Assembly: GCA_016793305.1 (NCBI GenBank)
Contig: JAEUHU010000378.1
Coordinates: 1 to 17,649, forward strand
Reading direction: 5' to 3'
Source: Planctomycetota bacterium
Lineage (GTDB): Bacteria; Planctomycetota; UBA1135; UBA2386
Length of the DNA: 17,649 nt
Within the stretch, counting starts at the first letter, position 1. Every line of letters starts with the position of its first letter. The position numbers and the translations under genes were made by a program. Positions 3,327 through 17,649 of this stretch are shown here, one piece after another. The notes under the pieces were generated by a model that was given only the letters and a program-made list of their open reading frames with translations, had not been told where the DNA came from and did no database searches.

Positions 3327-4969
3327 CCGACCCAGACGATGCCGTGCGAGTCCCCGACGATCGTGGTGCCGGCGACCCGCTCGCACGTGCCGAGCTCGCC
3401 GTGCTCGAGCAGGCTCTGCACGAACACTTCACCGATCGCACGCCGCCCGACCTGTGGCCGGCGGTTGCGGCACGATCCGCGGCGACCCACGGGCTGCACC
3501 CTTCGTCGACCGCGACGCGGCTCCGCTCGCTGCTTGGTGCGGCCGTGATGCTGTTCGGCCTCGCCGTCGTCACGACCATGCTGCTGTGGCGCCCCGCCGC
3601 CGACCGGGACGTTCCCGCCAGCGTGCCGCAGGACCCGTCGGCGACCCTGCCGAGCGACCTCGCCGCCCTGCAGGCCGAACTGGTCACGACGAACGAGATC
3701 CAGGTGCAGACGCGCGCCGTGTGGAGCCCCGAACTTCGCCGCTGGGCGACGCTGCCGCGCCACGACCTCGATGCCCTGTTCCAGTCGCCGCTGCATCCCG
3801 CACTCGACGCCGACCTCGTCGCCCGGATCCGGGCCGCGATCGCCGACGCGAAGCTCGCTCCAGGGGTCGGCGGCGACGCTCCGCTGCCGACCTGGTCGCA
3901 CCACCTGCTCCTCCCCCGGAAGCGGGAGCTGATGGTGCGGATCGGGGGCGACGCACCGCCGCTGCTCGGCTTCGCGTCTGCCAACGGACCGGTGCTGCTG
4001 CACGCGCCGGGCTTCCCGTTCGCCGAGCTCGAACCGGTGGCCATGCGCACGACGAAGGCGACGGTCGAGGCGCAGGGCATCGTGTTGGGTGCCGGCGGTT
4101 TCGCCGCGGTGCCCACGACGGCGACCCGCATGCGCCTGTTCGACGTGCCGAACTCCGCGGTCGGCGAACTCGCCCGATACCCGTCGCTGCGGCAGCTGGA
4201 CCTCACGGCGGCGCCGGCCTGGCACGATGCCGCGACGCTGCGCGCGCTGGCTGCGAGTTCCCTCGAGTCCCTGACCGTGGCGCCGCACCGGCTCGACGCG
4301 GCGGCGTTCGGGGCACTGGGGCAGCTGCGCACGCTGCAGGAGCTGTTCCTCGTCGAGCGGCATCCGGTGCTGCACGTGTTCGAACGCCACGCCACCACGC
4401 AGGCCCCGTCGCTCGACGACACGGCCCTGCAGGCCCTCGGGAACCTCGTCGCGTTGCGCGAACTGACCCTCGCCGGCGGCCGTTGCACCGATGCGGGCCT
4501 GCAGGCGCTGGCCGCCCTGCCGATCGAGCTGCTGGCGCTCGTCGACTGCGACGCCGTGCGCGGCGAGACCCTGGCCGCGCTGCCGCAGGTGCGCGAACTG
4601 ATCGTTCGCGGAGGAAACCTCGGCCGGGCTGCGACTTCGCAGCTCGCGAACCTGCCGAAGCTGAAGCGGCTCTACCTGCTCGAAGCGGCGGCTGCGTTGC
4701 CGCTGGGACCGCTGGCGAGCAGCCGTTCGCTCGCGGACCTGACCATCACGGGTCCGTTCGCGCGCAGCGAGCTGCCGCAGCTCGCCCCGGCTGGCGCACT
4801 GCGCGAGCTGCGTCTGCAGCCGACGCCGCCGTTCGCCGACGGCGAACTGCCGCTGCTGCACGAGCTGCGCCAGCTGAAGCGGCTATCGCTCGCCGGGTCG
4901 ACGGCCGCGCAGCGCGCGGCGTTGCATGCGGCGCTGCCGAACTGCCAGGTCGGGGACGAGCTCTGGTGA
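3323..4969 (+). CDS. Membrane-anchored leucine-rich-repeat protein, putative anti-sigma factor
   Basis: A 548-aa protein with a short cytoplasmic N-terminus (1-68) containing LHEHFTDRTPPDLWPAVAARS. The TPPDLW stretch resembles a segment often seen near the start of planctomycete anti-sigma proteins. One transmembrane helix lies at about 69-89 (LLGAAVMLFGLAVVTTMLLW). The exterior part has irregular leucine-rich repeats from about 275 to the end, for example LARYPSLRQLDLT, LGNLVALRELTLAGGRCTDAGLQALAAL and LRQLKRLSLAG. AGAGGAG at 3307-3313 is a good Shine-Dalgarno nine bases before ATG 3323, and the ATG overlaps the sigma stop. The layout, with a cytoplasmic sigma-binding segment, one helix and an external sensor, suggests an anti-sigma factor with an LRR sensor; no ZAS zinc motif (HxxxCxxC) is present, so this is inference. 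The protein boundaries are secure. Confidence 0.85.
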   Translation: MTDPDDAVRVPDDRGAGDPLARAELAVLEQALHEHFTDRTPPDLWPAVAARSAATHGLHPSSTATRLRSLLGAAVMLFGLAVVTTMLLWRPAADRDVPASVPQDPSATLPSDLAALQAELVTTNEIQVQTRAVWSPELRRWATLPRHDLDALFQSPLHPALDADLVARIRAAIADAKLAPGVGGDAPLPTWSHHLLLPRKRELMVRIGGDAPPLLGFASANGPVLLHAPGFPFAELEPVAMRTTKATVEAQGIVLGAGGFAAVPTTATRMRLFDVPNSAVGELARYPSLRQLDLTAAPAWHDAATLRALAASSLESLTVAPHRLDAAAFGALGQLRTLQELFLVERHPVLHVFERHATTQAPSLDDTALQALGNLVALRELTLAGGRCTDAGLQALAALPIELLALVDCDAVRGETLAALPQVRELIVRGGNLGRAATSQLANLPKLKRLYLLEAAAALPLGPLASSRSLADLTITGPFARSELPQLAPAGALRELRLQPTPPFADGELPLLHELRQLKRLSLAGSTAAQRAALHAALPNCQVGDELW

Positions 4970-7690: not shown

Positions 7691-10421
7691 GTCGTCCCAT
7701 CCCACCCTCCTTGGGATCGCCTCGCGCCGCAGCGCGGCGAGGCGGCGCGAGCTGCCGTTCCGCACCCTTTGCCTCCCCACCGCCGCTGCGCTGCTGGCCA
7801 TGCTGGCAGCGTGCGGCGGCCGGAGGTCCGACCCGGTCCCGCCCGCCGGGCCGACCGGCGCCCTGCACCTGACGTTCCACGGCGTCACGACGTCCGGGGA
7901 CGACAGCAGACCCTTGGTGATGGGCGGTGCAGGAGACCGCCGTCAGGTGGCGGCGTGGTCGGTTGCCGCCGATCGGACCCGAAGCGCGGTGACCACCGCA
8001 GTCGAACTCCAGCTCGACGATGCGACGGTGGCGCGACTCGACGGCGACGTACTCGAGTCGGTCGGCCCAGGCGAAACCACGCTGCGCGCCAGCTACGCGG
8101 GCAGCACGGTGGCGGTGTTGGTGCGCGTCGTCGAGGACGCCGCGGCAGCCATCGAGGACTTCTCGCTTTCGGTCGCCGAGCCGCTGCGACTGCATGCGAC
8201 GGGCGCCGTCGTCGACCTGACGGCGATGGGCTCCCTCGGCAACGGCGCGCGGGTCGCCGTCGATTCTCGCTTGCAGTGGTCGTCGAGCACACCGTCGACC
8301 TTCCTCGTCGACTCGGCCGGCAGGGTCACGGCGGTCGGCGAAGGTACAGGCCTGCTCTCGGTGCGCGACGCCGCGTCGGGGCGCGAGCGCACCCTCGCCG
8401 TCGCCGTCGCGTTGCCGCGGCCGTCAGGCAGCACGCTGCCGTTCCACCAAGGGGGCCTGGTCGTGAACGGCAACCTGTCGGCCTACGTACCGCCGTTCGC
8501 GCTCGATGCCGACCGCCAGGTGTGGGTGCAGCCGTGGACGGCGCCGGGCGGGTTGCCGTCCGGCCACGTTCCCGTCGCCGCGTTCGAGGTCCTGGTCGGT
8601 GGTGGCGGCACGCCACGCCGCCCGCTCGAACTGCGCATCGACTCCGCGTCGCTCGCCGAAGCCGCGCCGGCGGTCGGCCAGCTGTGGTCGGAGGCGCCTG
8701 GCAGCAGCACCCTGCAGCCGGCGTTCCGCGTGGCCTGGGAGGCTGCCGGTCAGGCGTGGCTGCAGCTACCGGCGCTCGGGCGATACCTGTTGTCGTTCGA
8801 GCCGGGGCTCGCGGCGGAGCTCGCCCACCTGTACGCGCCGGTGCTGTCGCTGTCGGTGGACGACATCCATCCGATCGGCTTCCAGGAACTGCTCGCCAGC
8901 TGCCAGCTGCGGACGCCGTCGGGCGTCGCAGGGAGCGCCACGCCGCTCACGCCGACGCAGTTGCTCGAGCCGGCGAACGACCTGCCCGACAGCCGCATCG
9001 AACTGCTCGACGGGTCGCGCCAGGAATTCACGGAACGAACGAGCAGCTGGAAGCACGCCAGCCTCGGCGGCAGCGAGGTCGCCTCGCCGAAGCCGCCCGT
9101 CGTCTACTGGGCGCTGCGCGGCGCAGGTCAGCACCTGGTGCTGCAGTACTGGTTCGTCTACGCGGCGAGCGGGCAGCCCTACTACGGCGGCCTCCACAAC
9201 GGCTACGACCTGGCCCACGAATGCGACCTCGAAATGGCGCAAGTGATCCTGAGCAGCACCGGCTCGGACTTCGTGCCGGTCGCCGCGACGGCGTCGCAAC
9301 ACTACTATGGCGAGGGGCGGCATTGGCGCGACGTGACGTTGGAAGGCGGACGCCTCTTGCTGCACGTCGCGGAAGCAGGTCACGCGACCTACTTCGAGCC
9401 AGGGTTCGACGGCGCTGCCGACGTACATGGCTCCTATGCGGGCGAGACGGGGTTCCTCGGCAAGGTCGCGCCGCTGCTCTACGTCTACGATCGTTGCGCG
9501 ATCGGCAGCCGCCAGCGGAAGCTGGCGCCGGGCCAGTACGAACTGCGCGACCTGCACGCGGCAGCCGATGACAGCCGGGCGCTGTTGCGATTCCGCGGGC
9601 GTTTCGGCCGCGATGGGTTCCTGGCGCCAGCGACGGGCAGCGTGGCGACGCGCGGCCCAGAGGGGTTCTCGATGTACGCATTCCCGCGGTCGTTCCATCG
9701 CGCGTTCCTGTTCAGTACCGACACCAGCATCCGCGCCATCGAGCGGAACGGAACCGGACGGGCCGATCGACTGCGGCAAGGCGAACGAATGGAAGCTCTG
9801 CAGGCGTACACAGCCGATCGCTGGGAAGGTCCGGTGCAAGAGAGGATCGACGGCGCGTGCAGCAGCGAGGCGGGGCAGCCAGCGCATCTGGCGGCACACC
9901 TCGTGGCAACGGCGCAGCGGCCCGAGGACTACTATGCCTGCGAAGACTGGCGGCTCGTCAGCATCACGCCTGCGACGCCGGCAGAGGCCTTCGTCGATCA
10001 GACGCTCACAGTGCAGATCCGATGGCGCGGGACACGCCGCCGCGACGGGCAGGCGGTGCAGTTCCCAGTCGCCTTCTGGCTGCAGCCGGCCAACGACGAG
10101 AACTACCTCGGCCTGTCGGCAATCCCCTACGGGACTGGGCCGTCGGCCAGCGTGTTCTTCGTGGCTTGCGGCGGGGCAGGGGCCACCGCGGACGAAGGGG
10201 ACCTGACGGTCGACCTGCCGCTGACCTGGATGTCGGACGCAGGCGTGCCACCGGCGGCCTGCGACACCACCAACCCGCCGACCTTCGCGACGCCGTTCCA
10301 CTTGTGGGTACGAGACGCCAGCGGGGAGTACCTCCACTTGACGTGCACGACGCCGGGTTGTCAGCAGCTCGGCCCTGCCACCGGAGAGCCGCTGCGGTTC
10401 GTCGTGCGTGTCTGCCCCTGA
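7689..10421 (+). CDS. Large lipoprotein with Ig-like (BIG2-type) repeats and a Vps62-like domain
   Basis: A 910-aa protein. The signal TLCLPTAAALLAMLAACGG has a good lipobox (LAAC, Cys42), so it is an envelope lipoprotein. Residues about 60-245 hold two bacterial Ig-like domains, with repeated strands such as TVARLDGDVLESVGPGETTLRASYAG and TFLVDSAGRVTAVGEGTGLLSVRD. Residues about 465-670 resemble Vps62/NPP1-like domains: LQYWFVYAASG, HECDLEMAQVIL, SQHYYGEGRHWRDV, AGHATYFEPG. In that family the His/Asp-Glu and GxHAxYF motifs line a metal-binding pocket. A Cys-containing beta-rich tail (about 750-910) follows. I chose ATG 7689 rather than an in-frame ATG 48 bp upstream because it gives a better signal. 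The function is unknown; surface binding or cell-wall interaction is a guess. Confidence 0.75.
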   Translation: MSSHPTLLGIASRRSAARRRELPFRTLCLPTAAALLAMLAACGGRRSDPVPPAGPTGALHLTFHGVTTSGDDSRPLVMGGAGDRRQVAAWSVAADRTRSAVTTAVELQLDDATVARLDGDVLESVGPGETTLRASYAGSTVAVLVRVVEDAAAAIEDFSLSVAEPLRLHATGAVVDLTAMGSLGNGARVAVDSRLQWSSSTPSTFLVDSAGRVTAVGEGTGLLSVRDAASGRERTLAVAVALPRPSGSTLPFHQGGLVVNGNLSAYVPPFALDADRQVWVQPWTAPGGLPSGHVPVAAFEVLVGGGGTPRRPLELRIDSASLAEAAPAVGQLWSEAPGSSTLQPAFRVAWEAAGQAWLQLPALGRYLLSFEPGLAAELAHLYAPVLSLSVDDIHPIGFQELLASCQLRTPSGVAGSATPLTPTQLLEPANDLPDSRIELLDGSRQEFTERTSSWKHASLGGSEVASPKPPVVYWALRGAGQHLVLQYWFVYAASGQPYYGGLHNGYDLAHECDLEMAQVILSSTGSDFVPVAATASQHYYGEGRHWRDVTLEGGRLLLHVAEAGHATYFEPGFDGAADVHGSYAGETGFLGKVAPLLYVYDRCAIGSRQRKLAPGQYELRDLHAAADDSRALLRFRGRFGRDGFLAPATGSVATRGPEGFSMYAFPRSFHRAFLFSTDTSIRAIERNGTGRADRLRQGERMEALQAYTADRWEGPVQERIDGACSSEAGQPAHLAAHLVATAQRPEDYYACEDWRLVSITPATPAEAFVDQTLTVQIRWRGTRRRDGQAVQFPVAFWLQPANDENYLGLSAIPYGTGPSASVFFVACGGAGATADEGDLTVDLPLTWMSDAGVPPAACDTTNPPTFATPFHLWVRDASGEYLHLTCTTPGCQQLGPATGEPLRFVVRVCP

Positions 10422-10477
10422 TGCGGAGGGGCGACGCGTGCATCCTCCTGCCGGTAGTCGAGCGCGATCGACCGGGA

Positions 10478-10592
10478 TTGCCCGAGTCGGTGGCGATGCG
10501 CACCATCGGACCTCGATCCTGGTAGGCGACTACCAGGTTTCGAGTTCAGCCGGCTGCGGCCAGGTGCTCGCTGGTCCGCGCAACACGCGCGG
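10478..10592 (+). repeat. Left copy of ~115-bp imperfect direct repeat flanking the element
   Basis: This stretch aligns by eye with 17526-17645 in the same orientation. Shared blocks are TTGCCCG, GCGCACCATCGG, ACCTCGA, the CTGGTAG(G/T)CGACTACCAG palindrome (10519-10536), TTTCG, CTCGCTGGTCCGCGCAAC and a CGCGC hairpin (about 10577-10592). It ends 18 bp outside the CCA end of the tRNA-Pro fragment. Either it is the sequence downstream of the tRNA gene on both partners, with a tRNA 3' processing or terminator structure, or it contains integrase recognition sites. Confidence 0.8.
10519..10536. promoter_or_regulatory. 18-bp near-palindrome CTGGTAGGCGACTACCAG
   Basis: Inverted CTGGTAG/CTACCAG arms with one mismatched pair near the centre. 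It corresponds to the perfect palindrome at 17571-17588 and shares its half-site with three direct repeats at 10800-10838. A tyrosine-recombinase arm site or a transcription-terminating hairpin are both possible. Confidence 0.6.
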
Positions 10593-10609
10593 AGGCTGAC
10601 GGTTGAAGA

Positions 10610-10655
10610 TGGTCGGGCCGGCCGGATTCGAACCGGCGACCTACTGGTCCCAAAC
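10610..10655 (-). tRNA. 3' half of tRNA-Pro(UGG): attachment-site core, not a functional tRNA
   Basis: Read on the minus strand this is the anticodon loop TTTGGGA (anticodon TGG), the 3' anticodon arm CCAGT, variable loop AGGTC, a perfect T-arm GCCGG-TTCGAAT-CCGGC, the 3' acceptor strand CGGCCCG, discriminator A and encoded CCA (10610-10612). The 5' anticodon arm should read ACTGG, but the sequence past 10655 is unrelated and no D-arm or 5' acceptor strand follows. Such a fragment is the classic scar of an integrase that recombines within the 3' half of a tRNA gene. It marks the distal border of the element; the intact gene should lie at the integrase end. Confidence 0.9.
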
Positions 10656-10987
10656 GGGAACCGGGTTGCCGGGTGGACGAACGACGACTTCGCGCAAGAA
10701 CTACGGCACGAGCCGGAAAGCCCGCGTTGGCAGCGTTCTACGTGGTATCAGAGCTTTCGCCAAGCCCTCTCAGGACTTCCCAGGGGTTCGCGTGGCTTCC
10801 TGGTAGTGCTTACGAAACTGGTAGTCGGAGCTGGTAGTTCCGCTGCAAGGATGCCGCGCGGGTGCAGTTGGGGCACGGCGATGGGCGAATGGTTCGGCGC
10901 TACTCCGTGGCGGCCGAAGCGGTGCTCGGGTAGGCGGTCGCGGCGAAGCATGCGCAGCGGCTCCTTCCGTCCGTATCGACCAGGGCT
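10656..10987. other. Gene-free left end of the element with arm-type repeats
   Basis: No credible gene lies between the tRNA fragment and the stop of the Sel1 gene. The notable content is the CTGGTAGT cluster near 10800-10838; the rest shows no clear structure. Confidence 0.6.
10800..10838 (+). promoter_or_regulatory. Three direct CTGGTAGT repeats, candidate integrase arm sites
   Basis: CTGGTAGT occurs exactly at 10800-10807, 10818-10825 and 10831-10838, all in one orientation, with start-to-start spacings of 18 and 13 bp. The same octamer forms both arms of the palindrome at 17571-17588. Phage integrases bind short arm-type repeats on both sides of the crossover core, and this layout fits that model. 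Excisionase (directionality factor) sites are an alternative. Confidence 0.6.
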
Positions 10988-12412
10988 CTAGTCCTTCCTG
11001 CTTGCGCGAGATGCTTCGAGCTTCTGGTGTAGTTCGCGAGCCATAGTCTGGCCCTCTGCGACCTGCTCCCGCGTCATCTGCTTCTCAAAGACGGACCGCA
11101 TTTCCGCAGCCTCAGTATCCCCTTCGGCAGCCGCGAGGTTCAGCCACGCATATCCCGCGACATCGTCCTTCGGCACACCCCTGCCAGACAGGTAGGCCGC
11201 AGCGAGGCGATTCATCGAACGAACGTGCCCGAGTCGAGCCGCCTTGAGCAACCACCTCGTCGACTCCTTGTCATCCTGCGGAACTCCTCTTCCACCCTGA
11301 TAGTGCATTCCAAGACCGTACATCCCCGATGGGTCCCCTAGGTCGGCAGCCTTCTGGAGCCAACGAACCGCTTCTCGATCGTCTTTCGGAACGCCTTTGC
11401 CGTTCGAATAGGCCACAGCGACTGCAAACATCGCGGATGGATCACCTAGATCGGCTGCCTTCTGGTACCAGCGAAATGCCTCTGCCAGATCTTTCTCAAC
11501 TCCGCCGCCCATGCTGTAGCGCAGTCCAAGAATAACCATTGACTCTACATCCCCCCTCTCCGCAGCCATACGACTCCAGCGAACAGAAGCCAGGTGGTCC
11601 TGAGCGACACCTACCCCAGCTCCGTACCACTCCCCCACCTGCCGCATAGCTGGCACGCTTCCGAGCACCGCAGCGTTCAAGTACTTCCGAAACGCCTCCT
11701 TATCGTCCTTCGGCACACCACGGCCCTCTGCGAATCTCGCGCCCAAGTTCAGCAACGCAGATGCGGAGCCGAAGTCCGCAGCCTTCTGATAGCAACGAAC
11801 GGCTTCCAAGTCATCCTTCAACACGCCTTGCCCCAACTCATAGGCGAGCCCCAAGCTGAAAAGCGCAACGGCGTTGCCGAGCTCCGCAGCCTTGCGATAC
11901 CACGCAACGGCCTCCTTGTGGTCCTGCTCCACTCCTAGGCCCTCGGCGTAGCATAGGCCGAGGTTGTACATCGCATTGATGTTGCCGAGGTCCGCAGCCT
12001 TGCGATACCACGCGACCGCTTCCTTGTATTCACGCAACATGCCGAACTGTAGGCCAAGTTCGTTCATGGCATCGGCGTTGCCGAGGTCCGCAGCCTTGCG
12101 ATACCACGCGTTTGCCGCCTTGTAGTCCTTCGGAACGCCCTGGCCGAGGAAGCAGCAGCGGCCTAGGCCATACATCGCATCGGCGTTGCCGAGCTCCGCA
12201 GCCTTGCGATACCACGCAACGGCCTCCTTGTGGTCCTGCTCCACTCCTAGGCCCTCGGCGTAGCGCGCGCCGAGGCAGAGCATCGCAGGAGCATCACCCC
12301 TGTCGGCCTTCGCCTTGAGCTCGGCGATCGGCGGATCCTGGCGCTTCGATGCCGGCGGCTGCTGCGCGTTGGAAGGCAGAACGAGCAGGAAGAGTGCTGC
12401 AAGTGACTTCAT
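10988..12412 (-). CDS. Secreted Sel1-repeat (TPR-like) protein
   Basis: A 474-aa protein with signal peptide MKSLAALFLLVLPSNAQ (1-17, cleavage probably after NA). About eleven Sel1-like repeats of 36 residues follow, of the form AMYNLGLCYAEGLGVEQDHKEAVAWYRKAAELGN, plus a C-terminal cap of about 50 residues (YAWLNLAAAEGDTEAAEMRSVFEKQMTREQ). Repeat three is four residues short. Such alpha-solenoids bind proteins or peptides; no enzyme domain is present. The gene's GC content is visibly lower than its neighbours, and it is the last gene of the element before the att site, so it looks like cargo. The frame stays open upstream through the HTH gene and the repeat array, but the signal peptide fixes the start at 12412. 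No Shine-Dalgarno is evident. It lies 41 bp downstream of the HTH gene and may share its transcript. Confidence 0.88.
   Translation of the reverse strand: MKSLAALFLLVLPSNAQQPPASKRQDPPIAELKAKADRGDAPAMLCLGARYAEGLGVEQDHKEAVAWYRKAAELGNADAMYGLGRCCFLGQGVPKDYKAANAWYRKAADLGNADAMNELGLQFGMLREYKEAVAWYRKAADLGNINAMYNLGLCYAEGLGVEQDHKEAVAWYRKAAELGNAVALFSLGLAYELGQGVLKDDLEAVRCYQKAADFGSASALLNLGARFAEGRGVPKDDKEAFRKYLNAAVLGSVPAMRQVGEWYGAGVGVAQDHLASVRWSRMAAERGDVESMVILGLRYSMGGGVEKDLAEAFRWYQKAADLGDPSAMFAVAVAYSNGKGVPKDDREAVRWLQKAADLGDPSGMYGLGMHYQGGRGVPQDDKESTRWLLKAARLGHVRSMNRLAAAYLSGRGVPKDDVAGYAWLNLAAAEGDTEAAEMRSVFEKQMTREQVAEGQTMARELHQKLEASRASRKD
11869..11952 (-). repeat. 84-bp exact intragenic repeat, copy 1 (second copy 12181-12264)
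   Basis: By eye the 84 bases at 11869-11952 are identical to 12181-12264, 312 bp apart, in frame within the Sel1 gene (104 codons, equal to two full repeats plus the shortened one). Exact identity between repeats that otherwise differ suggests recent intragenic duplication or gene conversion. Confidence 0.8.
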
Positions 12413-12453
12413 GCGATGGCGTGTTGGCAAGGGCACCTTCAGGGCAGACGAGG

Positions 12454-12741
12454 CTACCCGATCTGGCGGTCCCCGCCAGACTCGGCACAGGCACGTTCTT
12501 GCGCCATGCATTCGGATGCCAACGCCGCTCGCAGCCGCCGCGCCTGCTCCTGCCAAGCCCGCCGTAGCCGCAGGGCAACGGTCGGATCGGTTCGCTTGAG
12601 CAGCCGCAGGGCCGACGGCCGGACGCCGGCAGCCATCGCCGCTTGCGCGTAGGTAGCCCCGGCAACGATCGCCTCGACGGCGGCGGCAACGTCGGCTTCG
12701 GTGACTTCGGACCTCAACTTCGGACGCTCGATCTTCGGCAT
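12454..12741 (-). CDS. Small HTH protein resembling phage terminase small subunit
   Basis: A 95-aa protein: MPKIERPKLRSEVTEADVAAAVEAIVAGATYAQAAMAAGVRPSALRLLKRTDPTVALRLRRAWQEQARRLRAAL. Residues about 17-48 form an HTH (VEAIVAGATYAQAAMAAGVRPSALRLL). The following DPTVALRLRRAWQEQ resembles the DPEFAxRLxxA segment after the HTH of small terminase subunits and related phage HTH proteins. A good Shine-Dalgarno (CGAGGGAG, 12748-12755 on this strand) precedes the ATG by six bases. It lies directly downstream of the repeat array, whose last unit supplies that RBS. It could be a DNA-recognition subunit for packaging, a regulator of the array, or an unrelated HTH. The gene is likely real; the family call is tentative. 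Confidence 0.65.
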   Translation of the reverse strand: MPKIERPKLRSEVTEADVAAAVEAIVAGATYAQAAMAAGVRPSALRLLKRTDPTVALRLRRAWQEQARRLRAALASECMAQERACAESGGDRQIG

Positions 12742-12751
12742 GGTTCACTCC

Positions 12752-13135
12752 CTCGCGTGCGGGTGCATGCGCGTGCGTACACGGTCGGAAACTGCCCTCG
12801 CCTGCGCGAACGCGGGCGCACGATGGCCCGAGAATCCCGCATCGCCGCATCGGGCGCGCACGCACGCGCGTACTTGACGGCGAAGGGCAGCCTTCGCGGG
12901 TGCAGGAAGGTTCGCGCAAGCTTGCGGCAACCCACTCGCGCGCACGCACACACACACGCGCGATGCGCGACTCGATATCTGGGCGAACGGTCGCCGGCCT
13001 CGCGCGCAGGCGCACGCACACGCACGATGAGTCGGACATCGCCTCCCTCGCGCGCGGGCGCGTGCACGCGCTCGATGCGTCCGGCTTCCCCTTCCTCGCA
13101 CGCGGGTGCGCGTCGCGCGCGATGCGCGTGCCCAT
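12752..13135 (-). repeat. Array of about eight degenerate ~48-bp units with alternating purine-pyrimidine tracts
   Basis: Units begin with CTCGC-like sequence near 12752, 12797, 12850, 12894, 12935, 12999, 13047 and 13095 (plus-strand reading). Spacing is 42-64 bp, most often 44-48. Each continues into a GC/CA-alternating tract such as GCGCGCACGCACACACACAC or GCGCGTGCACGCGC (a perfect palindrome), commonly followed by CGATGCG. No credible gene occupies the interval between the helicase and HTH genes. Candidate roles are an iteron-type origin, a packaging or protein-binding site, or a structured leader of the HTH/Sel1 transcript. Confidence 0.7.
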
Positions 13136-13156
13136 CCGAGATCCAGGACGCCCGCA

Positions 13157-13172
13157 GAGCCGCGAACGGCTC
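13157..13172 (-). terminator. Hairpin with UUCG loop downstream of the helicase gene
   Basis: On the minus strand GAGCCG-TTCG-CGGCTC forms a perfect six-base stem about 80 bases after the helicase stop. There is no U-tract, so a terminator, processing or origin-associated structure is only possible. Confidence 0.35.
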
Positions 13173-13252
13173 CCGTCGACGTAGGCACGCCCGCCGCGAC
13201 GATCGCGCAACAGCGGGCACGCCAAGCGGCCCAGCGAGGAATGCGGGAGCCA

Positions 13253-15010
13253 TCATGCTGCGCCCTCAGCTTCGCCATGGGTTCTTCCCGAGGCGCACTC
13301 GCCAGGTTGCTCGGCAACCGAACCCGCCCCAGCACCACGAGACGAGACGCACCGGCTCCCTATAGGAGCCTGGTGCGCCTCTCTCGATGGGGTGCTCCGA
13401 GGCGCACTGGTGCGGCTCGGTGCGGCTGAGTGCGGCTCGGTGCGGCTCGGTGGTTCCGATGCCTTCACGATCCCTTGGAACTCGACCGGCACCAGGCGGA
13501 GCACCTGCTCGGAGACCTTCGCACCGTCGAGGTAGTGCAGCTGCTCAGTCCGAACGCCAGGCAACTTGACCACGGCATCTCCCAGGGCGTAGCGAGCCGA
13601 GCAAAAGCGCGTCGGTCCACACACAGCGCGGACACGGAAGGCCCCCTCAAGATCCTTCGTGCCTAGGCCGGGTTGTCGGGCAACCAGTTCCGCCAGCAAC
13701 GCTTGATCCTGCAACCGCTCCCTCGCCTTGGCGGCGTCCTTGGGCTTACTCGCCGCCGGCACCTGAAACGTCGTGTCCTCGGTCAACTCCTGCGTCGCCC
13801 GGTTCAGGTGAAGCACAATGCCCTGCTCGTCTGGCAGGTGGTCTCGCCCCAGCTTGTTCTTCACGACCCGACACTCGATGCGGTCGCCAGAGCCAGCAAT
13901 CGACGTGAGGTTGAGTAGCACGCGCGCCTGGAACTCGATGCTGCGGGAATCGGCGCCCGCTGCCATGCCGTTCTGCTCCGCAGCGGCAACCGCCGAGCGG
14001 TAGGCGGCCCGGTTCATCTCCGACGTGCACCAGACGACCATGCGATACCGCGAGGCCACCACCCTGGCCGAGGCCGCTGCCGCCGCGACGGCGGCCTTGC
14101 GGTCCTCGCCCTCGGCTGCGGACTGGATCGAGTCGACGAACAGCGCGGCAGGCTTCCCGGCATCCTTCGCCCGGCGAGCCAGGTCGGCGCCCGCACTCTC
14201 GATGGTATCCCCGTGGGAGTAGAACACGATCGGCAGCTCTGCCACCTGCCGCTCCATTCGGTCGAGTTCCTCCGAGTCGCGCAGCTCGGTGGATTGGCGC
14301 GACCAGCCGCGACGCTGCAGGAACCGCTGCAGCAGGTCGTCGGGCTCTTCGTCGATGCCGAGGATGCCGACGACGAGGCCGCACTGCGCCCAGGTGTCGG
14401 CGACCTGCACCGCCAGCGCCGTCTTGCCGGCGTTCGGGGCGCCGTTGGAGTAGATCCGCGTGCCGAGCACCGGGCCGCCGCCCGTCATCTCGTCGAGGGC
14501 AACGATGCCAGTCGGGACGTGGACCAGCGGCCCTTCGTCGCGCCACCGGCGCAACACGTCCGCAGGTGCCCGGCCCGGCCAAGCCTCATGCACCGAGGGT
14601 GCCGGCCGCGCCGCGTCGAGCATCGACAGGAGTTCGGGCATCGGCGCGCCATCGCGAGCCGCGCGCGCCAGTTCGGCGGCATGCCCGGCGATCCATCGGC
14701 GGTCGGACTCAGCGCGTACGATCGCAGCGTGCCGGTGCGCGCCGGCCCCGGTCACGACCTCGTCGAACAGATCCAACAGGTAGGCATGCCCGCCCGCCTC
14801 GTCCAGCTGCGCCCCGAGGCGGCTGCCGACCGCGATTGGGTCGGTTGCACCTGTCGCGGCGTGCTCGGCGTAGATCGCCCGCAGGATCGCGGCGTGCCTC
14901 GGCATGCCCATGTCGGCCGGCCGGAGCATCGCCCGGACACCAGCGACGGCCGCCGGGTCACGTAGCAGCGAGCCCAGCACGCTGCGTTCGGCCTCGGAGT
15001 GCAAGGCCAT
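13253..15010 (-). CDS. DnaB-like replicative helicase (RecA-fold ATPase) of the element
   Basis: A 585-aa protein. The N-terminus SEAERSVLGSLLRDPAAV...LRPADMGMPRHAAILRAIYAEH is typical of the DnaB N-terminal domain (about 1-110). The RecA-like ATPase follows (about 165-420): PTGIVALDEMTGGGPVLGTRIYSNG, Walker A GAPNAGKT at 190-197, IDEEP at 219-223, Walker B AALFVDS at 288-294, and VVWCTSEMNRAAY at 325-337. A C-terminal segment (about 425-525) may be a winged helix, and the last 60 residues are Ser/Pro/Arg-rich. ATG 15010 is five bases after the DUF1580 stop, so they form an operon. It probably opens the element's origin, or loads at a host or helper fork. No primase domain is seen. The frame is open upstream of 15010 but lacks homology. 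Confidence 0.87.
   Translation of the reverse strand: MALHSEAERSVLGSLLRDPAAVAGVRAMLRPADMGMPRHAAILRAIYAEHAATGATDPIAVGSRLGAQLDEAGGHAYLLDLFDEVVTGAGAHRHAAIVRAESDRRWIAGHAAELARAARDGAPMPELLSMLDAARPAPSVHEAWPGRAPADVLRRWRDEGPLVHVPTGIVALDEMTGGGPVLGTRIYSNGAPNAGKTALAVQVADTWAQCGLVVGILGIDEEPDDLLQRFLQRRGWSRQSTELRDSEELDRMERQVAELPIVFYSHGDTIESAGADLARRAKDAGKPAALFVDSIQSAAEGEDRKAAVAAAAASARVVASRYRMVVWCTSEMNRAAYRSAVAAAEQNGMAAGADSRSIEFQARVLLNLTSIAGSGDRIECRVVKNKLGRDHLPDEQGIVLHLNRATQELTEDTTFQVPAASKPKDAAKARERLQDQALLAELVARQPGLGTKDLEGAFRVRAVCGPTRFCSARYALGDAVVKLPGVRTEQLHYLDGAKVSEQVLRLVPVEFQGIVKASEPPSRTEPHSAAPSRTSAPRSTPSREAHQAPIGSRCVSSRGAGAGSVAEQPGECASGRTHGEAEGAA
13344..13381. repeat. Long imperfect inverted repeat in the helicase 3' end
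   Basis: Arms at 13344-13359 and 13365-13381 (GAGACGCACCGGCTCC against the complement of GGAGCCTGGTGCGCCTC) pair with one bulged base and one mismatch around a five-base CTATA loop. It lies inside the sequence coding the low-complexity tail of the helicase, 40 bp from the tandem 10-mers, and could be part of an origin or an mRNA hairpin. Confidence 0.6.
13411..13450 (+). repeat. Four tandem 10-mers TGCGGCTCGG
   Basis: TGCGGCTCGG repeats at 13411, 13421 (as TGCGGCTGAG), 13431 and 13441. Ten-base units place each copy on the same face of the helix. They encode part of the Ser/Pro/Arg/Glu-rich helicase tail. They may be protein-binding sites of an origin or simple low-complexity coding. Confidence 0.7.
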
Positions 15011-15015
15011 CGGCG

Positions 15016-15276
15016 TCAGAGGTCCCCGCCGGCAAGCGAGGTGAGAGCCGCCGCGAAGCGATGCAGCTCCTCCCGTGTGGTGAACCACCCGCGCGGACCA
15101 ACCCGATACCGGCGCAGCCGAACCCCATGCGCGCCGATGCTCGACCACCGGTAGATCGTCGCGACGCTCCGCTGCCGACCATCGGCACGGGGAGGAAGGT
15201 GGTCAGGAACCGCGCCAAGCGGGATCGGAGACTCACCCGTCCACCACGGCGCACGGCTCTTCGCGTCAGTCGTCAT
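15016..15276 (-). CDS. DUF1580 family protein, excisionase-like winged HTH
   Basis: An 86-aa protein whose core DHLPPRADGRQRSVATIYRWSSIGAHGVRLRRYRVGPRGWFTTREELHRFAAAL matches the layout of DUF1580, a family common in planctomycete mobile elements. Its core looks like a MerR/excisionase winged HTH: SVATIYRW is the recognition helix region, RLRRYRVGPRGWFTTREEL the wing. In an element with a tyrosine integrase, such a protein is the best candidate for the recombination directionality factor. It may also regulate promoters. It leads an operon with the helicase (five-base gap). The start at 15276 has no obvious Shine-Dalgarno but lies 18 bases after the 45-bp motif shared with the integrase gene. 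Confidence 0.8.
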   Translation of the reverse strand: MTTDAKSRAPWWTGESPIPLGAVPDHLPPRADGRQRSVATIYRWSSIGAHGVRLRRYRVGPRGWFTTREELHRFAAALTSLAGGDL

Positions 15277-15294
15277 GCCAGTGCAGGATGACGT

Positions 15295-15339
15295 GACGAC
15301 GGGCAGCGATGGGCAAACCCGCAGTTGCCCGTCAGTGCC
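15295..15339 (-). promoter_or_regulatory. Shared 45-bp leader/operator motif upstream of DUF1580-helicase operon
   Basis: On the minus strand: GACGGGCAAC, GGGTTTGCCC, then GCTGCCCGTCGTC. There is one GGGCA half-site and two TGCCC half-sites; GACGGGCA and TGCCCGTC can form a perfect 8-bp stem, and GGGCAA/TTGCCC a competing 6-bp stem. Its edge lies 18 bases upstream of the DUF1580 ATG. The matching copy at 17495-17539 is exactly 18 bases upstream of the integrase ATG. It overlaps the last codons of the 244-aa gene. Confidence 0.75.
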
Positions 15340-16066
15340 TCGGCGTGTCGCTCACGAACCGCCACGGGCCGCGCGTCTTGGTTTGCGCGACCATCCCAGC
15401 TGCGTCCATCGCGTTCAGCAGATCCCCCGCCCGCCGTGGCGAACACAAGAGCCGAGCGTCCCCGTTGATTGCCTTCCGCATCTTCGGCCCAGCGCGCAGG
15501 ATGTCCCGGATCGACTTGCAGCCAGGGTCGTTCACAAGGTCGAGCTCGACGCTACGCCTCGCAGGCGCAACGTGAACCACGGCCTCGCTGCCCTCGTGCG
15601 CCGCCAGCACGTCATCCACGATGTCGTCGACGCCATCCTCCCACAGGAGCAGCGGGTTCCGGCTGATGCCTCCCGAGAAGCGAAGCGCGTGCTCGAACTC
15701 ACGCAGTCGGCGGGAGCCGTCGACGCGCAGTTGCGCCCCACGGTCCGCGAGCCGACGAGCCATGTCAGCAAGAACCCACGCAGCGGAACACAACGCCTGC
15801 GGCGGCGCGAGGTGGTCGACCCTCACGAGACTGCCGTCAGGTCCAGGCTGGAAGGAATGCGCCGGCTCCCAGCCTGCCGCGCGCTTCTGCTCGTCATCCG
15901 CCAACTGGAAGGCCCACAGCCCAGAGCCCTCAAACCCGAACTTCACTCGCCGAGGCAGCAGGTCTTTCCATGTTCGGAGCGCCTTCTCCCACTGCTCGCG
16001 CAACCCCTCGCGAACGGCCGGAGCCGCCTTCGCCTTTGCCGTGGTCGCCCTTTTCGTCGTCGCCAT
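15332..16066 (-). CDS. Unknown 244-aa protein of the element
   Basis: I do not recognise the family. The start at 16066 is fixed by a strong Shine-Dalgarno GGAGG nine bases before the ATG; a longer in-frame reading exists but lacks this. Residues 1-18 (ATTKRATTAKAKAAPAV) are Lys/Ala-rich and probably disordered, typical of a nucleic-acid-binding tail. The middle is soluble, with no transmembrane segment or signal. The last 60 residues (RDILRAGPKMRKAINGDARLLCSPRRAGDLLNAMDAAGMVAQTKTRGPWRFV) look like a winged-helix DNA-binding domain, which is a guess from the pattern. It sits between integrase and DUF1580 on the same strand, so a regulatory or replication-initiation role is plausible. Confidence 0.75.
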   Translation of the reverse strand: MATTKRATTAKAKAAPAVREGLREQWEKALRTWKDLLPRRVKFGFEGSGLWAFQLADDEQKRAAGWEPAHSFQPGPDGSLVRVDHLAPPQALCSAAWVLADMARRLADRGAQLRVDGSRRLREFEHALRFSGGISRNPLLLWEDGVDDIVDDVLAAHEGSEAVVHVAPARRSVELDLVNDPGCKSIRDILRAGPKMRKAINGDARLLCSPRRAGDLLNAMDAAGMVAQTKTRGPWRFVSDTPRH

Positions 16067-16177
16067 CGCCGTGTGCCTCCGATCCCGTGTGCCTGCCGAA
16101 GAACACCGGGGGCACCGCGCAGGCACGCGCGGCCGACGTGGGAGCTACCCACGCCGTTGCCCACCGGAGAGTGAATG

Positions 16178-17476
16178 CTATCCGAGCGCGCGCGCCTCGA
16201 CCGCAGCGGCCACGGCGAGCTCGTCGTCGCGCCGAACGTGGACGTAGCGTTGCGTGGTCGTCAGGTTGCGGTGGTTCGCCGCTGCCGCAGCCGCGCCAAG
16301 GCTCAGCGTGTTCGCGGCCCAGGTCAGGAAGCCATGCCGGAGCTCGTGCGGGGTGAACCGTTCGACGTTCGCCTTCCGGCACGCGCGCTCGACGGCGTGG
16401 CGGTACTCGTTGAGCCCCCAGCACGACGCATACTCACGCCGGGCCGTGGCGTCGCGCTCCAGCTGCGAGGGCTGTACCGGGGTCTTGCGAGCCGCCCGCA
16501 TGCGGGCGCGCCGTTCCGCCATCGCGGCGGCCGGCGAGAACACGTAGGCCAGCGGTGGTGCGGGGAACTGGTTCAGGATGCGTTGCGCAGCCGGCGGCAG
16601 CACGTAGCGGGTCACGTGGCCGTGGTGCGAGGTCTTGCCGGCCGGCACCGTGTAGAGCCAGCTGCCCGTCCGGTCGCCTTCCAGCGGGGTCTTGTCGATG
16701 TCGGCCCAACGCAGCCGGCAGACCTCGCCGGGCCGCATCCCGGTGAGCACCTGGAGACGGATCATCGCCGCGACCTGGGGGCAGCAGTGCACGGCCACGC
16801 GCGCCGCCTCCTCAGCCGAGACGGCCCGCCGAGGTCGGCCGGTCTCCGGTCGGTCGCCCACCTCGCCCCGCTTCAACGGCTCGATCGCAGCCACGTCGAC
16901 GAACACCGCCTTCGGCACGAGCCCACGCGACTTGCCCCAACGCAGCACGTAGAGCGCGGCGGCCACCAACCGATTGATGCCGCTGCGCGTCCGCTTCCGG
17001 TTGCCTTCCAGCCGGTCGCGCCATCGCACGAGGCCGGCCTCGTCGAGCTTGGCGATCGGCAGCCCGGCGAAGTGTTCGGAGAGAGAGTTGCCGACCCACG
17101 CGAAGTGCTGGCGTTGGGTCGTCGGCTGCCCACCCTTCTGGTAGCGCCCGCTCGCGTCCACGTAGGCAAGGAACTGGTCGAACAGGCTGCGCATGGTCAA
17201 CACGGCCTGCACAGGGTTCGGCGCCTGGTGCAGCGGCTTGCGGCCGGCGGCCAGCCATTCCTTGACGAGCGAGGCGTAGCGTTCCAGCGCCTCTGGGCTG
17301 CCGGCGCGACCGAGGTAGTGCTCGACGCCGGAGAGCAGAACGCGCGCCTGGCCGGAGCCCTTGTGCACGCCCATGCGCGGCACCCGTTGCTGGCGCTGCG
17401 GCTTCGCTCGCTTCGTGCGCCGCGTCACCCGTTCGGGGAACGGGATCGGTTCGCAGGAGCCATCGCGCGGAAGCAT
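16178..17476 (-). CDS. Tyrosine recombinase/integrase
   Basis: A 432-aa phage-type integrase. The N-terminal arm-binding part reads GVHKGSGQARVLLSGVEHYLGRAGSPEALERYASLVKEWLAAGRK, a segment typical of planctomycete integrases. A core-binding domain follows (about 85-185), then the catalytic domain with Arg248 (TGMRPGE), Lys281 (PAGKTSHHGH), His377 and Arg380 (HELRHG), His402 (NHRN) and nucleophile Tyr411 (QRYVH). All six catalytic positions are present, so it should be active. It sits at the right end of the element, pointing inward, as expected beside the tRNA att site. I chose ATG 17476 over the open frame to 17557 because the 45-bp leader motif then sits 18 bp upstream, as it does for the DUF1580 gene. 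The predicted target is the 3' half of tRNA-Pro. Confidence 0.93.
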   Translation of the reverse strand: MLPRDGSCEPIPFPERVTRRTKRAKPQRQQRVPRMGVHKGSGQARVLLSGVEHYLGRAGSPEALERYASLVKEWLAAGRKPLHQAPNPVQAVLTMRSLFDQFLAYVDASGRYQKGGQPTTQRQHFAWVGNSLSEHFAGLPIAKLDEAGLVRWRDRLEGNRKRTRSGINRLVAAALYVLRWGKSRGLVPKAVFVDVAAIEPLKRGEVGDRPETGRPRRAVSAEEAARVAVHCCPQVAAMIRLQVLTGMRPGEVCRLRWADIDKTPLEGDRTGSWLYTVPAGKTSHHGHVTRYVLPPAAQRILNQFPAPPLAYVFSPAAAMAERRARMRAARKTPVQPSQLERDATARREYASCWGLNEYRHAVERACRKANVERFTPHELRHGFLTWAANTLSLGAAAAAANHRNLTTTQRYVHVRRDDELAVAAAVEARALG

Positions 17477-17494
17477 GGACTCGCATGCAATCGC

Positions 17495-17539
17495 GACGAC
17501 GGGCAGCGACGGGCAGAACCCTTCGTTGCCCGTGTTGCC
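17495..17539 (-). promoter_or_regulatory. Shared 45-bp leader/operator motif upstream of integrase
   Basis: On the minus strand: ACGGGCAACGAAGGG, TTCTGCCCGTCG, CTGCCCGTCGTC. It matches the 15295-15339 copy over nearly its full length, with a one-base indel. ACGGGCA can pair with either of two TGCCCGT segments. It is 18 bases upstream of the chosen integrase ATG. A weaker, degenerate relative may lie at 16140-16164 upstream of the 244-aa gene. Confidence 0.75.
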
Positions 17540-17645
17540 GGCGGTGGTGCGCACCATCGGGACCTCGAATCTGGTAGTCGACTACCAGTTTTCGGGCTCA
17601 CCCGGTCGCGACGCGGCTCTCGCTGGTCCGCGCAACGCGCGTGGA
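17526..17645 (+). repeat. Right copy of the imperfect direct repeat at the integrase end
   Basis: This stretch aligns with 10478-10592: TTGCCCG, GCGCACCATCGG, ACCTCGA, the palindrome, TTTTCG, CTCGCTGGTCCGCGCAAC and a CGCGC hairpin (about 17628-17644). By analogy with the left copy, the CCA end of an intact tRNA-Pro should begin about 18 bp after the hairpin, that is near 17660, just outside the window. Confidence 0.8.
17571..17588. promoter_or_regulatory. Perfect 18-bp palindrome CTGGTAGTCGACTACCAG
   Basis: A perfect inverted repeat whose half-site CTGGTAGT recurs three times at 10800-10838 and once, with one change, at 10519-10536. It is a likely integrase arm-binding site; a TTTT run after it on the plus strand also allows a terminator reading. 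Confidence 0.65.
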
Positions 17646-17649
17646 CACG

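Follow-up and report, generated by a model that had tools for sequence, protein, structure and literature searches.

A candidate operator shared by the integrase and DUF1580-helicase genes of a planctomycete integrative element

We analysed a 17,649-nucleotide contig of a Planctomycetota bacterium (JAEUHU010000378.1, assembly GCA_016793305.1), hereafter the window, the right part of which is an integrative element. Two copies of one motif lie on its minus strand, one in the 5′ end of the tyrosine integrase gene (int) and the other at the upstream edge of the genes for a DUF1580 protein and a DnaB-like helicase. From the sequence we propose a candidate operator that is specific to the element, of a known kind and unusual in its position, and whose mechanism we infer. 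The motif is probably a DNA site bound by some regulator encoded by the element. The more specific reading, which we favour only tentatively, is that it forms a phased array of half-sites bound by DUF1580 in the manner of BldC, Xis and RdfS, controlling both int and the DUF1580-helicase genes.

Read on the minus strand, the repeat is ACGGGCAACNNNGGGTT(C)TGCCCRTCGCTGCCCGTCGTC and spans 39 nt at 17495–17533 and 38 nt at 15295–15332. The two core copies agree in 34 of 39 alignment columns, one of the differing columns being a 1-nt gap, and each sits 18 nt before an ATG (17476 and 15276, respectively). In the integrase copy the tandem half-sites TGCCCGTCGC TGCCCGTC occupy 17498–17515 and an inverted ACGGGCA stands at the 17533 end; the DUF1580 copy, which touches the stop codon of the gene for a 244-residue protein, has TGCCCATCGC TGCCCGTC at 15298–15315. 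The two TGCCC half-sites start 10 bp apart, and the outer GGGCA is shifted by 1 bp between the copies. The initial annotation, which described the same 45-bp motif upstream of both genes, correctly gave each copy one GGGCA and two TGCCC half-sites; the spacers match at 7 of 18 positions in the ungapped register. Both copies and their 18-nt distance stand, but "about 45 bp" was generous, with 30 of 45 ungapped positions matching and 23 of 27 at −19 to −45. Compared without gaps, the two 100-bp upstream regions score 21 at best, at offset 0; 500 dinucleotide shuffles gave a maximum of 14. With up to 3 mismatches allowed, GACGGGCAGCGAYGGGCA was found in the window only in these two copies, both times exactly, and at least two matches occurred in 5 of 200 shuffles.

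One relative shares a different motif in the same way. In L002, a metagenome-assembled genome (MAG) of Phycisphaerales, int and DUF1580 share ACGAAGGCGCGCC(C/T)TCG at offset 0, which is unlike the window motif (score 16; 500 shuffles reach 15). The L002 int also carries a second, GGGCA-type unit in tandem, with its own in-frame ATG 78 nt downstream, and comparison by eye with L121 suggests that the first unit was added.

The spacing of the half-sites is regular. In five integrase units, self-similarity reached a mean z of 3.78 at lag 10 and at most 1.01 at all other lags from 5 to 25, and 16 DUF1580 upstream regions gave a weak peak only, at lag 9–10. Direct repeats of 9–11 bp (p ≤ 0.05) occur in 8 of 33 DUF1580 upstream regions versus 8 of 150 taken from in front of other long open reading frames (Fisher p 0.002), and palindromes in 9 of 33 versus 16 of 150 (p 0.017). 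These 33 regions comprise 16 of 17 DUF1580 matches of a first set (L180 was left out) and 17 of 18 phylum-wide places, the eighteenth (G323) being L181, already in the first set. The window DUF1580 upstream region by itself passes neither the repeat nor the palindrome test (9 and 11 of 100). The second tandem half-site stands 21 nt from the start codon in the window int, the window DUF1580 and L191, and also in L121 and both L002 units, where the half-sites were placed by homology. L002 and L168 have DUF1580 arrays of another layout; in L168, a 50-bp near-perfect palindrome (4180–4260, minus strand; 0 of 100 shuffles) abuts the DUF1580 gene on its upstream side.

Several results weigh against our interpretation, or at least against its generality. 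Elsewhere in the GC-rich window, 100-bp stretches sampled at 50-bp intervals from both strands reach scores of up to 17 when compared with the integrase copy, so base composition accounts for part of the similarity, although not for the height of 21. Among nine class-level elements with both upstream regions available, a motif is shared between int and DUF1580 only in the window and L002, with none in the seven others (L176 had no integrase side). None of seven phylum-wide pairs shares one; in this set the integrase upstream regions of L100 and L102 are only partly covered, owing to an interrupted integrase frame. The initial annotation had named relatives without the motif as the finding that would speak against it, and such relatives exist at both the class level and across the phylum. 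Since the more distant relatives lack the sharing, the wiring seems confined to the window's integrase subfamily, and we regard the shared site as a feature of that subfamily.

We searched 154 genomes with patterns for two motif types and recovered at most one match per genome; a dispersed repeat was rejected on this result. The first type gave matches in four genomes at up to 3 mismatches (G002, G491, G412 and G001; two in the reversed control). Context identifies the G002 and G491 matches as integrase units, and a scan of G412 gave no further unit. The second type matched in two, G495 (the L191 integrase) and G499, the latter with 3 mismatches in coding-like sequence. Six viral contigs carry TGCGCTTCGTTGCGCTTC without an integrase relative close by; in L195 the match is longer, and the DUF1580 model also gives a weak match there (E 0.0004). 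A stricter GGGCA pattern gave no match in viral contigs, phage and plasmid records yielded no integrase relatives at a cutoff of E ≤ 1e-10, and scans of genome contigs with the window integrase and of viral contigs with the window helicase recovered no relatives.

Regarding the integrase start, the situation differs from that first described, with the motif before the start codon. An in-frame ATG at 17557, with GAGG before it, puts the motif inside the integrase frame. Relatives read by eye show the order tRNA, palindrome of variable sequence, Shine-Dalgarno-like stretch and ATG, and in L191 GAGGAGG precedes the upstream ATG, with the array further inside. Because the window matches this plan with ATG 17557 after GAGG, we place the motif within the frame. 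ATG 17476 is not confirmed as the start and is probably an internal one, from which the 18-nt distance holds. The unit appears as a translated N-terminal extension in 27 of 66 other integrase homologs (assigned by eye). At the position of ATG 17476, 23 of these 27 have Met and four Val, which may be what a start codon would allow, Val codons being invisible in protein data; a dual start (17557 and 17476) is possible. A sigma-70 promoter scan of 15200–17649 found none, and no TANNNT box was seen by eye before the internal start. A bolder reading, which we consider improbable, is that the array, the 21-nt spacer and the internal start codon make up a movable module held in frame in the integrase 5′ end. 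Regulator binding would decide whether a long integrase is made, transcribed from the tRNA side and begun at the upstream start, or a short one begun at the internal start. A single site would then set the integrase isoform together with helicase expression, and a change in regulator specificity would bring addition or swapping of the module, as L002 suggests. If true, this would be an unusual way to set integrase dose in a tRNA-integrated element.

The initial annotation had left the choice between an operator and an RNA leader to later work. An RNA element now seems quite unlikely; it would control translation or termination through alternative hairpins that both transcripts form in their leader or early coding sequence. 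A hairpin is possible in every unit, and in ICEKp1 int-leader stem-loops are reported to attenuate int; however, folding of the seven units was inconsistent, with z from +0.77 to −5.22. L168 (−5.22) lies far beyond its shuffles and L121 and the second L002 unit reach about −2.1, whereas the window copies give −1.21 and −1.73 and the linked L002 pair +0.77 and 0.02. No Rfam family, int-alpA RNA (RF02996) included, matched in 10000–17649 at E ≤ 1, and the RNA leader was rejected on these two grounds. Moreover, 10-bp phasing has no reason in RNA, and the symmetry of a DNA site would yield the same paired changes. We prefer a DNA site because of the half-site phasing, the kept register, the inconsistent folding and the sharing of another motif in the same register by L002; two predicted winged-helix proteins in the window also favour the operator. 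We give still less credit to the view that the integrase motif simply reflects conservation of a peptide at the N-terminus, or is a mobile repeat, palindromic and tolerated in frame, with the DUF1580 copy a chance duplication. The frame is open through the unit in 27 homologs, a biased count as proteins cannot show closed frames, and L002 has two tandem in-frame units. Against this, the window DUF1580 copy has a 1-nt gap relative to the integrase copy and precedes a start codon, none of the 154 genomes had more than one match to either motif type, and the window and L002 keep one register with different shared motifs.

Equally hard to sustain is a purely recombinational site, with accessory excisionase-type sites of the attachment arm and no role in expression: the integrase copy lies 37 bp from a candidate arm-type palindrome, but about 2.2 kb separate it from the DUF1580 copy, which keeps the same start-codon register, and a search near the left end gave no copy. 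A doubtful but more serious alternative is a DNA operator of the same kind bound by the 244-residue protein, whose C-terminus is predicted to form an ArsR/MarR-like winged helix; it would act as a maintenance repressor, and its N-terminal domain might sense a signal. A symmetric dimer, however, needs no 10-bp tandem phasing. The GGGCA and AAGCG motif types are alike, as are their DUF1580 proteins (59% identical), while the visible end of the L168 middle gene is unlike its counterpart by eye. The most likely binder is DUF1580, and the alternative is the predicted ArsR/MarR-like end of the 244-residue protein.

DUF1580 is predicted to be a winged helix with a BldC/Xis/RdfS-like fold, and its gene lies near a tyrosine integrase in the window and, within about 3 kb, in 9 of 18 phylum-wide places. 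In the mechanism that we tentatively favour, DUF1580 would bind the phased half-site arrays at both copies and act as a repressor. Autoregulation would come from the copy that borders the DUF1580-helicase genes upstream. The copy within the first part of int, which lies at 37 bp from the candidate arm palindrome, would control int and perhaps also assist excision. The tie to excision is suggested by the predicted fold, and that to replication by a single circumstance, the DnaB-like helicase gene adjoining DUF1580. No paper naming DUF1580 was found in a literature search, and the proposal gives a concrete candidate role to this integrase-linked family of Planctomycetota.

On the attachment side, the 3′ half of a tRNA-Pro-like gene (10610–10656, minus strand, read by eye) is the probable left attachment core. 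Within the window ARAGORN detected no complete tRNA; beside the integrase, the tRNA side lies past the window edge, and the left 3′ half alone is visible. Rfam recovered a tRNA in 10 of 14 distinct relative loci scanned, always beside the integrase start. Between the attachment side and the integrase lies the palindrome CTGGTAGTCGACTACCAG (17571–17588, strand not assigned), a candidate arm-type site of the integrase whose place is occupied in relatives by palindromes of differing sequence. The integrase motif array lies on the side of it away from the tRNA. Near the left end, three direct copies of CTGGTAGT (10800, 10818 and 10831; 10800–10838, plus strand) are further candidates, with six exact 8-mers in the window against 0.27 expected from shuffles. 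No convincing half-sites outside the palindrome were found in L169, L170, L177, L175, L171, L001, L188 and L189, so the arm-site reading rests on the window. The left flank (10496–10593) repeats the integrase upstream region at 17547–17645 (81% over 86 bp) and encodes MVRIATDSGN, which resembles the start of the homolog P0002; it is probably what remains of an older element that occupied the same tRNA site in tandem.

From the right edge, the minus-strand genes run in the order integrase (16178–17557, long frame with ATG 17557 and internal ATG 17476; PF00589), 244-residue protein (15332–16066; winged helix at about residues 175–238; no Pfam match), 86-residue DUF1580 protein (15016–15276; PF07618; predicted winged helix) and, immediately 3′ of it, DnaB-like helicase (13253–15013; PF00772 and PF03796). 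Eight homologs of the 244-residue protein (P0074–P0081) appear by eye to swap domains: six have the C-terminal winged helix, four the N-terminal domain and two both. Beyond the helicase toward the left end come a GC-rich repeat stretch, a 95-residue protein, a Sel1-repeat protein and the tRNA-Pro-like 3′ half. In the stretch (12748–13109), direct repeats each about 48 bp long have the potential to form hairpins, and it is possibly a replication origin of the element. The integrase homologs that carry a name belong to MAGs of planctomycetes or Phycisphaerales or to unplaced bacteria, and Planctomycetota MAGs supply the best genome loci.

Structured RNAs do occur in relatives. Rfam found in the 14 loci only tRNAs and one int-alpA RNA, known here by its Rfam name alone, which points to a structured RNA linked with genes for integrase and AlpA. 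It lies in the planctomycete element L115 (3964–4029, 51.4 bits), about 0.8 kb before a DUF1580 gene; at E ≤ 1 it was not matched in L002, L168, L121, L001, L169 or L170. A two-hairpin element, GCYGA-[stem 1]-AC-[stem 2]-NGCGGCC, lies between tRNA and integrase in relatives such as L098, L170, L104, L108 (2749–2795) and L100 (2733–2779). Covariation is strong across 18 hand-trimmed sequences, where 89.2% of cells are paired, with a score of 0.653 versus at most 0.156 when slid. Its model recovered 17 further distinct loci at E ≤ 0.1 from 44 sources (L189 is near a training sequence) and had no match in the integrase region of the window, L002, L121 or L191. By analogy with the stem-loops of ICEKp1, it may be an int leader attenuator.

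Literature searches on planctomycete integrative elements with an excisionase gave nothing on this system by title among the matches listed, and one joining AlpA, excisionase, satellite, integrase and operator found none. Three known systems come close. BldC of Streptomyces (PMC5859096) is a MerR-like winged helix that forms a head-to-tail multimer on direct repeats one helical turn apart; it is a host developmental regulator, whereas the window arrays lie in a mobile element and also have an inverted half-site. In the KplE1 prophage (PMC2951348) the IntS promoter overlaps the attachment region beside a tRNA, and the excision factor TorI represses int there. The corresponding placement of the int upstream region beside the attachment tRNA is that of the 10 relative loci above; unlike KplE1, the window has a second copy before the DUF1580-helicase genes and its first copy within the int frame. 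RdfS of ICEMlSym(R7A) (PMC11963761) is an excision factor with a small winged-helix fold. It has binding sites upstream of intS, near the integrase arm site, and at its own promoter, and so couples excision to the expression of both int and its own gene. In our case one site is inside the integrase open frame and binding by DUF1580 is a prediction. RdfS sites, as far as that report describes them, have no consensus motif, whereas the two window sites share a readable motif with a fixed register, so that the sites of an RdfS-type regulator could here be read from the sequence.
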